Shown here piece after piece: positions 59,986-64,000 of a stretch of 64,000 nt of DNA. Every line of letters begins with the position of its first letter. Within the stretch, counting starts at the first letter, position 1. The stretch is taken from assembly GCF_002355395.1 (NCBI RefSeq), contig NZ_AP017315.1, positions 682,001 to 746,000 of the forward strand. Direction: 5' to 3'. This DNA comes from Microcella alkaliphila (lineage in GTDB: Bacteria > Actinomycetota > Actinomycetes > Actinomycetales > Microbacteriaceae). The notes under the pieces were generated by a model, which did no database searches, was not told where the DNA came from, and was given only the letters and a program-made list of their open reading frames with translations. Position numbers and translations under genes: made by a program.

Positions 59986-60076
59986 GTACGTTGTGCAGGA
60001 GTACAGCTGGCTTGGCCGCGGAATCACGCGGCCCTCGCAGCGGCGTCATGGCTGTACTCCTGAGAAACGTCACGCC
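59986..60076. repeat. left REP-like inverted pair upstream of the DUF559 gene
   Basis: CAGGAGTACAGC (59996-60007) is the exact complement of GCTGTACTCCTG (60051-60062). The right unit continues as AGAAACGTCACGCC (to 60076); the left unit has a degenerate match to this extension (from about 59986). An inner stem GGCCGCG/CGCGGCC (60014-60020, 60027-60033) lies between. The unit TACTCCTGAGAAACGTCA recurs at the right end of the gene. The pair is 90 nt before the ATG. Confidence 0.75.
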
Positions 60077-60165
60077 GCTCCCTCACACCCGCGGGCGCTT
60101 TCACCCGCAGCACATGTCCGCAATCCGGTGCTCAGGGCTGGGTGTCGACACGTCATCGTCGCGCC

Positions 60166-61065
60166 ATGTTCGTACTCAACCCACTCAACGTTTACTCGCG
60201 ATCCGATCTCCTCGCGTCTGTGCCCATCTCGGCCGTGCGTCGAGCAATCGCGCGGGGCAATCTTCTCCGCCTTCGCCGCGACGTGTACGTCAGCCCAGCA
60301 ATGCCGCCTCGCATGCAAGAGGCTCTCGCTATCGGCGGCAGTCTGTGCTGCGTCTCGGCGCTCGCTGAACGCGGAGCCTGGCATCCTCCCGCGCGCGGTC
60401 TACATCTCACTGTTCCGCACAATGCGTCTCGGCTCGCCCGTCCGCGCAGTGGGGCGCACGCTGTCACCGTTCACTGGAGCATGGATGAGGTCACGCGGCC
60501 ACTGTCGACCGTCGACGACGCGCTTACCCGGCTCTTGGCGTGTCAGCCCCGGCGGATGTCGATCGCAGTACTTGACAGCGCCCTGCGCGCGGGCATCGTG
60601 AGCGACGAACGCGTTCGCGGTGCAAATGCGCGAGTCCCGGCAGTGTTTCGGCTCTCGCCCCGTGACCTCGACCCGCGCGCAGAGTCGGGTATCGAGTCGC
60701 TTGTGCGCGTGGCTATACGAGACGCAGGGTTACGGGTGGCGTCGCAGGTCGTGATTCCGGGGGTGGGACGTGTTGACTTTCTGGTTGAGGGCCGCGTCAT
60801 CGTCGAGGTTGACGGCAGAGAGTGGCATCGCGGCGAGCAGGAGCGCGACTATCGGCGTGATCTCGAGGCGCTGCAGCGCGGCTATCGGGTTGTGCGGGTC
60901 GACTACGAGCACGCGGTCGCGCACGCCGAGCTGGTGGTCGCCGCGGTCGTGCGGTCGGCCTCGGCCGCAGTCGGCGTTGGCGAGGGCGTGACGTTTCTCA
61001 GGAGTTCAGGCCCACCGAGCCTGGATGTACGCGGCAACGTCGGCGGGCAGGCGCTCTACTCCTGA
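60166..61065 (+). CDS. AbiEi-type HTH plus DUF559 (Vsr-fold) nuclease-like protein
   Basis: 299 residues. The N-terminal part (YSRSDLLASVPISAVRRAIARGNLLRLRRDVYV) is the winged-helix domain found in type IV antitoxin AbiEi proteins. The C-terminal part is DUF559, a Vsr/PD-(D/E)XK endonuclease fold: Glu173/Glu177 in ESGIESLV, Asp204 in RVDFLV, and Glu214/Asp216 in IVEVDGREWH. All candidate metal ligands are kept. The last 27 residues are encoded within REP-like units, and the TGA stop lies inside one of them, so the tail may have been added by repeat insertion. GTG at 60142 is an alternative start. No toxin partner is adjacent. Function unknown; DNA processing at the repeats is a hypothesis. 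Confidence 0.72.
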   Translation: MFVLNPLNVYSRSDLLASVPISAVRRAIARGNLLRLRRDVYVSPAMPPRMQEALAIGGSLCCVSALAERGAWHPPARGLHLTVPHNASRLARPRSGAHAVTVHWSMDEVTRPLSTVDDALTRLLACQPRRMSIAVLDSALRAGIVSDERVRGANARVPAVFRLSPRDLDPRAESGIESLVRVAIRDAGLRVASQVVIPGVGRVDFLVEGRVIVEVDGREWHRGEQERDYRRDLEALQRGYRVVRVDYEHAVAHAELVVAAVVRSASAAVGVGEGVTFLRSSGPPSLDVRGNVGGQALYS

Positions 61066-61077
61066 GAAACGTCATGC
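60985..61077. repeat. right REP-like inverted pair overlapping the 3' end of the DUF559 gene
   Basis: An inverted unit at 60985-61009 matches the left-hand unit 60052-60076 at 24 of 25 positions. A direct unit at 61054-61077 matches at 22 of 24. Together they form an inverted pair with a 44-nt centre. The pair overlaps the last 27 codons of the nuclease gene and supplies its stop codon. Confidence 0.8.
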
Positions 61078-62644: not shown

Positions 62645-64000
62645 ACGATATGGGTCTTCGGTCTGGTTCTTGAGGCTGGGACCTCGATTCGCGTATTCGT
62701 GGGTTGCCAGCTGTCGAGGGCTGGCCTATCCACCAGGCGAATGGAGGCCCCAGTTGAGAATCCAGCGTACGAGCGTCGGTCTGGACGTGCACGCCCGTAG
62801 TGTCGTGGGATGCGCAATCGATGAGGACACCGGGGAAGTGATCCGTCACCGTTTCGGCTACGACCCCGCAGCAGTTGTGGAGTGGGTGCGGAGCCTGCCG
62901 CAGCCGGCGGCGGTGACCTATGAGGCCGGGCCGACCGGGTTCGCTTTGGCCCGGTTGTTCACCGCCGCAGGCATCGAGTGCTTCGTGGCGGCGCCGTCGA
63001 AGTTGCAGCGCCCGGTCGGGGATCGAGTCAAGACCGACGCCAGGGACGCGATGCATTTGGCAAGACTGCTGCGACTGGGTGAGATCGTCGCGGTTGCCGT
63101 GCCCACGATCGAGCAGGAAACCGCCCGCGACTTGGTGCGAGCCCGGGAGGACAATCGGGGTGAGCTGATGGCTGCACGGCATCGGCTCTCGAAGCTGCTG
63201 TTGCGCCACGGGATCATTTATGACGGCAAGCAGGCGTGGACCGGCGCGCATGATGCCTGGCTGCGTCGGCAGAGGTTCGACCATCCCGGACTGCAGGCTG
63301 CGTTCGATGCCGACTACGAAGCAGTGCAGCAGGTGCGCGCCCGCAAAGACCGACTCGACGCGATCATCGAGCAGATGGCCGCGGCCAGCACCTACGCGCC
63401 CGTGGTGCGACGCCTGGGGTGCTTGCGTGGGATCTCGACCTTGACCGGGTTCGGCCTCGCGGTCGAGATCGGCAACTGGGAGCGCTTCACCGGATCCAGC
63501 ATCGGAGCGTTCGTCGGGCTGGTGCCCTCAGAGCACTCCTCCGGACAGTCCCGCTCGCAAGGCTCGATCACCAAGACCGGCAACACTCACGCCCGCCGCC
63601 TGCTGGTGGAAGCGGCCTGGCATCACCGCAAGCCCTATCGTCCCGGAGCGGTGATGCAGGCCCGGTGGGCTGCCGCGCCCAGCCTTGCAGCGTCCCGCGG
63701 CGACGACGGCAACCGGCGCCTGCATCAGAAATGGCAGCACTTCACCGCACGCAAGAAGCGGCCCACGATCGCGAACGTCGCCATCGCCCGCGAGCTCGCC
63801 GGCTGGTGCTGGTCCTTGGCCGTGATGCCCGACTGACCTGGGCCCCCTGACCGGTCGGTTCAGACGGCAGGTGACGGCAGCGCGAGGAGCGACCCGCGGA
63901 ACAGCTATGAGCAGCCCGCCCGAAGGGCAGGCGACGCTCGATCCTAGACAAGCGGAACCGCTCCAGCCGAACAGCACGTCCTGCGGTAACCAACCCGCGC
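62645..64000 (+). mobile_element. IS110-family insertion sequence (right end outside or near the window edge)
   Basis: The element surrounds the transposase gene at 62754-63836. IS110 elements lack clear terminal inverted repeats, so the ends cannot be fixed by eye. The left boundary must lie within 62645-62753, and the right boundary lies somewhere after 63836. The short 5' flank (at most 109 nt) and longer 3' flank (at least 164 nt) would fit the IS1111-type layout, in which the long non-coding end follows the gene. Confidence 0.65.
62754..63836 (+). CDS. IS110-family transposase (DEDD recombinase)
   Basis: 360 residues. The N-terminal RuvC-like DEDD domain is complete: Asp11 in GLDVHARS, Glu57 in TYEAGPTG, Asp95 and Asp98 in KTDARDA. 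The C-terminal Transposase_20 domain has LRGISTLTGFGLAVEIGNWERF and GLVPSEHSSGQSRSQGSITKTGN, where the catalytic Ser region is expected. A TTG start at 62754 is chosen because GGAGG (62744-62748) is 5 nt upstream and similarity begins there. No frameshift is seen, so it is probably functional. IS110 enzymes recombine DNA using a bridge RNA encoded in the element's non-coding end. Confidence 0.88.
   Translation: MRIQRTSVGLDVHARSVVGCAIDEDTGEVIRHRFGYDPAAVVEWVRSLPQPAAVTYEAGPTGFALARLFTAAGIECFVAAPSKLQRPVGDRVKTDARDAMHLARLLRLGEIVAVAVPTIEQETARDLVRAREDNRGELMAARHRLSKLLLRHGIIYDGKQAWTGAHDAWLRRQRFDHPGLQAAFDADYEAVQQVRARKDRLDAIIEQMAAASTYAPVVRRLGCLRGISTLTGFGLAVEIGNWERFTGSSIGAFVGLVPSEHSSGQSRSQGSITKTGNTHARRLLVEAAWHHRKPYRPGAVMQARWAAAPSLAASRGDDGNRRLHQKWQHFTARKKRPTIANVAIARELAGWCWSLAVMPD

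Follow-up and report, generated by a model that had tools for sequence, protein, structure and literature searches.

Why a predicted nuclease gene should lie between two copies of an inverted repeat unit, and whether repeat and enzyme form one system, is the question raised by this locus. Within the window (the whole stretch of 64,000 nucleotides analyzed here), a gene of the AbiEi-type helix-turn-helix (HTH)/DUF559 kind is placed between two elements, each composed of two inverted arms of about 20 bp and a variable interior of about 50 bp. A preliminary description had compared this layout with REP/REPIN elements accompanied by a dedicated enzyme, and had offered three roles for the units: mobile substrates, operators or targets of the nuclease.

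The cassette and its enzyme

The gene occupies positions 60166–61065 of the forward strand and encodes 299 residues from an ATG, with an alternative GTG start possible at 60142. The left element comprises a degenerate outer arm (ACGTTGTGCAGGAGTACAGC, 59988–60007, reverse strand), a variable interior (60008–60050), and a right arm (GCTGTACTCCTGAGAAACGTCACGC, 60051–60075, forward strand). Its arms are 85% complementary over 20 nt (59988–60007 with 60051–60070), which bears out the inverted pair of ~25-bp units, one of them degenerate, originally noted before the gene. The right element consists of a left arm within the coding sequence (GGCGTGACGTTTCTCAGGAGTTCAG, 60985–61009, reverse strand), a variable coding interior (61010–61052), and a right arm (GCTCTACTCCTGAGAAACGTCATGC, 61053–61077, forward strand); the pair at this 3′ end, also noted before, is 95% complementary over 20 nt (60986–61005 with 61058–61077). 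All arms were located by inverted-repeat comparison, and all except the outer left arm also by their count in the window. The best copies agree at 24 of 25 positions, as first stated (96% complementarity between 60052–60076 and 60985–61009). The right element spans the stop codon, which is the TGA of CTCCTGAG, and approximately the last 26 codons rather than the 27 first counted. Allowing up to three mismatches, ACTCCTGAGAAACGTCA occurs three times in the 64-kb window against 0.03 expected, a count reached in none of 100 shuffles. Comparison to RNA families gave nothing near the gathering score; below the threshold, most matches were between microRNA models and the long inverted repeat.

Pfam places a DUF559 domain at residues 188–262 (60727–60951, forward strand) with an E-value of 1.4e-6, above the cut-off, while the MTES_1575 match of the same protein falls below its curated cut-off. 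Among 22 aligned family members, searched at E-values up to 0.01, MTES_1575 is found in 21, DUF559 in 17, and AbiEi_4 in 11. Seven residues (Ser174, Glu177, Gln194, Asp204, Asp216, Asp228, and Asp232) are invariant in all 22, with Glu177 positioned just ahead of the DUF559 match; His221 is present in 21 and Glu214 in 19, so that the match itself holds conserved Asp204, Glu214, Asp216, His221, Asp228, and Asp232. By the pattern familiar from PD-(D/E)XK and Vsr nucleases, the invariant residues probably form the active site. Profile comparison with solved structures returned 3hrl (E 1.2e-7) and, weakly, the mobile-intron protein 3r3p (E 0.031). The enzyme gene has a dN/dS of 0.21 (window versus M. 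alkaliphila). The Vsr-fold DUF559 assignment and the conserved acidic residues of the preliminary description are upheld; the N-terminal DNA-binding domain is detected by Pfam in half of the family and not in the window member, for which the PADLOC matches, to AbiEi (E 0.014) and to homing nucleases, are all weak (E 0.014–0.026). We infer that the protein is a dedicated double-strand DNA nuclease with cognate repeats.

An AbiEi-type HTH beside inverted half-sites of ~20 bp also recalls the operators of AbiEi antitoxins (PMC7319586). AbiEi is described as binding two 23-bp inverted repeats, 3 bp apart, in its own promoter, and Rv2827c as binding pairs 13 bp apart, such that the gaps of these two known operators differ by 10 bp (PMC7319586). 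The protein might accordingly be an AbiEi-like repressor, with the flanking pair as its operator, dispersed pairs as the operators of a regulon, and a nuclease domain that is vestigial or serves separately. Such a repressor would suit the AbiEi_4 matches in 11 of 22 members and the element upstream of the gene, but is unlikely given that a second element sits at the gene's 3′ end, spanning its stop codon, and that seven residues are invariant in all 22 aligned members. Neither of the two adjoining genes, which encode an alpha/beta hydrolase and an aldo/keto reductase (Pfam), codes for an AbiEii (DUF1814) toxin. The cassette further differs from AbiEi operators in its fused nuclease domain and in having sites on both sides of the gene as well as dispersed ones.

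An IS110-family transposase gene (62739–63836, forward strand; Pfam Transposase_20 and DEDD_Tnp_IS110) lies ~1.7 kb to the right of the cassette. The arm search of the window placed no element arm on or near it.

Dispersed elements and their linkage to DUF559 genes

The exact 13-mer CTCCTGAGAAACG is present in 16 copies in the 2.70-Mb genome from which the window derives, where the reversed-pattern control gives none; with up to three mismatches in 17 bases, 19 places are found against one in the control. The unit is dispersed, as the comparison to REP elements had presupposed. In ten aligned elements of this genome, including the two at the DUF559 gene, the arms are conserved (one being degenerate in a few), and the interior is of near-constant length and variable sequence. 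An additional pair, GCAGGAGT..ACTCCTGC, is located near 62.6 kb of the genome. Perfect pairs of the window's own type were found in four stretches, all of M. alkaliphila AC4r, in a contig scan of one genome per species that possibly did not include the window's own genome.

Across the family, 24 of 299 genomes, from 14 of 85 genera, contain the core pair CTCAGGAG..CTCCTGAG, and one genome contains the reversed pattern; single core pairs in some of the 24 may be due to chance. Constancy of the arm core in these elements is set by the search pattern itself. Outside the core the arms are lineage-specific (TTGCGAA, TTTCCG, TTGTCGAC, and TTGGGGAA, with AAACGTCAC in the window's own genome). As judged with a simple purpose-written gene caller, 68 of 75 elements (68 fetched loci) are intergenic, although 89% of the DNA is called coding: 35 lie between convergent, 29 between tandem, and 4 between divergent genes, and 7 are inside a called gene. 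These positions suit REPs better than operators, and the excess of convergent over divergent contexts is a further argument against the repressor. Of the three roles originally offered, that of a pure operator is disfavored by the gene-end positions of the elements.

Genes next to the elements were surveyed in the window's own genome and in 12 relatives, where the DNA around the elements fetched yielded 564 predicted proteins. The DUF559 homolog cluster was found at, or within ~150 bp of, the element center in all four of its genomes. Other gene families were considered as partners; the larger BLAST clusters displayed sat at varying distances from the elements. Homologs of the enzyme are present in 22 of the 24 element-positive genomes, with one to seven matches each. 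In G127, two elements bracket the homolog and the right one covers the stop codon, as in the window; in G269, elements are found on both sides. One-sided loci also exist, for example in G137 (L099 and L111), with an element upstream only.

Bracketing was scored by aligning the left flank to the right one without gaps and taking the best similarity, with a threshold of at least 15 and right flanks from other genomes as the control. In the first sample (70 loci from 72 of 90 match rows, two genes being split; 16 partial rows left out), 53 of 70 homologs were bracketed against 13 of 420 permuted pairs, the highest-scoring of which presumably represent orthologous loci; 10 of the 70 scored below 13. 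Two more full-length homologs, at C1:1103239 of the window's own genome and G080:C1:2685998, scored 17 and 10, bringing the total to 54 of 72. A class-wide sample from other genomes (29 loci scored among the matches listed, one per genome, the window's own L179 left out and L190 ending at a contig end) gave 19 of 29 against 8 of 232. The third sample (36 of 42 rows, 6 partial rows left out, the G261 locus ending at a contig end) gave 30 of 36 against 3 of 216. Most of the relatives' homologs scored are flanked by the unit or their own equivalent of it. Among non-DUF559 genes of similar size, 4 of 138 in one set and 0 of 17 in another reach the threshold. A looser search for four arms was positive for 59 of 70 real loci; it was not used as a test of bracketing because 33 of 140 permuted loci were also positive, and loci with at most five mismatches served in the spacing and tree-label tests only. 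Arms of paralogs within one genome differ from each other. The second paralog of the window's own genome (L046, C1:1103239–1104045) is bracketed by a different arm, GTGTCCGCGACGTCAG.

The size, architecture, and extragenic location of the elements are as described for REPINs (PMC3116915), and a RAYT or insertion-sequence transposase could in principle move them as REPINs or MITEs of the usual kind, leaving the DUF559 gene a bystander. Judged on the two transposase families covered, Y1 and IS110, this is very unlikely: the Y1 transposase domain (Y1_Tnp, PF01797) is found in none of the 24 genomes with a CTCAGGAG pair (control, 5 of 14 genomes), the nearby IS110 gene is without arms, and DUF559 genes were bracketed in three samples where other genes rarely were. 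The 0/24 count also ruled out a RAYT as the partner.

Spacing between arms is likewise shared by the two sides of a gene. In 36 of 44 loci with clear arms, the left and right spacings are equal within 1 bp (shuffled mean 4.8, maximum 14), and in 8 they differ by more. The AGGA core is in mirror register on at least one side in 33 of the 44 and on neither side in the other 11. Distances from AGGA to TCCT fall at 51–55 (18 pairs), 63–65 (30), 75–76 (5), and 86 bp (1), with one outlier at 47 and six pairs in the opposite orientation. The steps are ~11 bp, and none of 2000 uniform simulations reached the observed strength of periodicity, which is best at 11.4 bp (26 loci, one value each); five close orthologs were removed and the remaining loci are partly related, making the test approximate. 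The same steps are seen in 67 CTCAGGAG pairs from 60 fetched loci of relatives, with lengths of 57–61 (54 pairs) or 69–73 (13) and none of 62–68. Such steps suggest that the two arms are bound by a protein assembly from one face of the double helix; they favor recognition of the double strand, given that a single-stranded hairpin would have no need of them. Quantized spacing, the near-zero reversed-pattern controls, and the co-variation of arm and enzyme described below make it barely conceivable that the elements are chance or terminator-like inverted repeats, a reading to which the many elements at gene 3′ ends would otherwise lend themselves.

From the arms flanking homologs, further dispersed families were predicted, and the prediction held for ATGCAGGA and TCAAGGAG. 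Pairs of ATGCAGGA..TCCTGCAT occur in 35 of 299 genomes with up to 36 copies (reversed control, one genome). A count of TCAAGGAG..CTCCTTGA pairs in 24 genomes gave 7, 15, and 12 copies in the three whose scored homolog bears the arm and at most three in the remaining 21; those without a recognized cognate gene include G269 (3), G080 (1), and G224 (1, as in the reversed control of that genome). A TGCAGGA-flanked homolog was found in seven of ten ATGCAGGA-rich genomes (five on both sides, two on one) and in none of eight ATGCAGGA-free genomes, of which G138 lacks any homolog and G261 has a truncated locus. There are exceptions. G060 has 15 ATGCAGGA pairs and two homologs, neither with that arm, and G058 and G276 have 14 pairs each and no DUF559/AbiEi homolog at E 1e-20. 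The repeats of the latter two are possibly orphan populations left after loss of the enzyme; enzyme loss with surviving repeats has been described for RAYTs (PMC3686654).

Arms and enzyme change together between Microcella species. M. alkaliphila AC4r (G451, a 200-base slice of which at this locus matches the AC4r record) has a protein 93% identical to that of the window, identical arms, and the same adjoining aldo/keto reductase gene; in G456, with the same reductase, the protein is 64% identical and the arms are changed to TGACGTATTGCAGGAA. Genome-wide, all 15 hits in the window's own genome are TTTCTC, compared with 13 TTTCTC and 2 TATTGC in G451, and 11 TATTGC and 3 TTTCTC in G456, so that each of the latter two retains arms typical of the other. 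Apart from one TATCGC in G450, these variants are missing from the remaining 15 genomes, as counted with a pattern blind to other arm types. On the enzyme tree, the arm-core type of 33 labelled homologs requires 12 changes, against a mean of 19.2 and a minimum of 16 in 200 shuffles; the tree was built from match intervals, and the 10 of 44 loci whose arms fell into no class were left unlabelled. With the exceptions given, the type of arm follows whether a DUF559 gene is present and which one, and to this extent the supposed link between repeat and enzyme survives; copies also lie near unrelated genes.

In G450 the cassette is absent, the reductase and hydrolase genes being ~50–60 bp apart. This absence between the same two genes, the conserved nuclease residues, and the weak match to 3r3p would be in line with a homing or self/non-self nuclease, for which the elements are cleavage or protection signals, in gene-conversion drive or defense, rather than spreading repeats. 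It is quite improbable, given the numerous, mostly intergenic elements (68/75) without the gene and the weakness of the PADLOC matches to AbiEi and homing nucleases.

Orthologous elements of the window's own genome and M. alkaliphila were compared for the four of five pairs that could be extracted; these are equal in length, with 1 difference in 136 positions of the arms and 32 in 211 of the interiors. With the element boundaries drawn for this comparison, the left element in the window differs at 0 of 34 arm (17-nt arms) and 12 of 53 interior positions, the right element at 0 of 34 and 7 of 52. At two dispersed sites the species differ, the element being missing from the window's own genome at one and from G456 at the other; no target-site duplication was established at either, and the differences may reflect loss rather than insertion.

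Proposed mechanism and relation to known systems

It is likely that gene and elements constitute a single enzyme-plus-cognate-repeat system, in which the HTH reads the arm, the DUF559 domain cuts, and the element is maintained and spread. By analogy with AbiEi, the N-terminal winged helix would read one arm, and two protomers would hold both inverted arms at the observed whole number of helical turns. The Vsr-fold domain, judging from its conserved residues, would nick or cut DNA in or beside the element, and ensuing repair or strand transfer could maintain and spread it. The gene-flanking elements may then represent source or home copies, and the dispersed elements of 80–100 bp a non-autonomous population. 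Each paralog has a private arm sequence and spacing, which would allow several systems to coexist in one genome without mixing.

The resemblance of this putative mode of action to that of REPIN/RAYT systems (REPtrons) is strong. These are described as extragenic inverted doublets with conserved ends and a variable spacer that flank a dedicated gene; their abundance is tied to the cognate enzyme, with which they co-evolve (PMC3116915, PMC3686654, PMC8266576). In contrast, the enzyme here is a DUF559 protein with an HTH rather than an HUH Y1 transposase, which was found in none of the 24 genomes, and the spacing follows helical turns, in favor of double-stranded recognition rather than the processing of a single-stranded repeat expected of REPIN/RAYT. 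Of six arms folded, four had minimum free energies between 0 and −0.2 kcal/mol, values that shuffled sequences matched or bettered, and the other two gave −3.0 (z −2.00) and −2.7 (z −1.26) kcal/mol. No tag common to all arms was seen by eye, nor a shared GTAG among the arms displayed. With neither a Y1 enzyme nor a generally hairpin-forming unit found, the system is not classed as REPIN/RAYT: the link to a dedicated enzyme holds, as first proposed, whereas the arms are not REPs as defined.

Short repeats, often in inverted dimers, are also characteristic of CGTC-tagged REPs; these differ in being reported without a dedicated enzyme and in five phyla that exclude Actinobacteria (PMC3733652). 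By eye, CGTC can be read in some arms (Microcella, G137, L172), while those of G127 L109 and G222 L150 lack it. Caulobacter VsrA, a Vsr/DUF559 nuclease, belongs to the same superfamily and has the DUF559 domain, but is tied to cytosine methylation with a proposed role in mismatch repair, and repeats are not mentioned in the accessible portion of that report (PMC12907096). In a literature search covering neither preprints nor most subscription journals, no paper linking DUF559 to repetitive extragenic palindromic repeats was found, none on REPIN with RAYT in Actinobacteria, and, among the matches listed, no title on a DUF559-type repeat system.

The DUF559 gene with its cognate repeats appears to be a counterpart of REP/RAYT that has so far gone undescribed. 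We regard it as new in kind since the enzyme and the DNA form recognized both appear unrelated to the known kind; on a stricter view, it could be a variant of repeat-plus-dedicated-enzyme systems. With perhaps an even chance, the proposal extends to many actinobacterial proteins annotated as very-short-patch-repair endonucleases or AbiEi/DUF559 domain-containing proteins, which would be repeat-dedicated, double-strand-reading nucleases, each copying or moving its own helically phased element together with its own gene. They would form a second, independently evolved solution beside REPIN/RAYT, built on a PD-(D/E)XK enzyme with modular, fast-changing arm specificity.

If the proposal is correct, a common nuclease family of unknown function would gain a biological role, and dispersed repeat families in actinobacteria, for which we know of no enzyme, would be accounted for. 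The combination of a dedicated enzyme with a genome-wide repeat population would have arisen at least twice, through unrelated chemistry. For CGTC REPs it has been asked how repeats can spread without a dedicated transposase (PMC3733652); a candidate type of enzyme would now be at hand. Dozens of natural enzyme/arm pairs, differing in specificity and spacing, make recognition directly testable.

Variant elements

Some elements carry further features. At G080:C1:2507389 and 2756007, perfect or near-perfect long palindromes of CTCCTGAATTGTG-like units are found, unlike the two-arm elements. Many arms in five genomes of one genus (G224, G175, G266, G120, and G050) extend inwards with CGGCGTGTCG..CGACACACCGG-like sequence, and some elements in G266 and G224 occur as tandem copies ~90 bp apart. 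The interiors of TCAAGGAG pairs in G118, G222, and G127 appear non-random by eye, with GTGTGAC or GTGNGGC boxes at steps of ~10–11 bp; in G118 and G222, TTGCTC or GAGCAA is, also by eye, often near the center. The recurrent interior boxes perhaps provide extra contacts.
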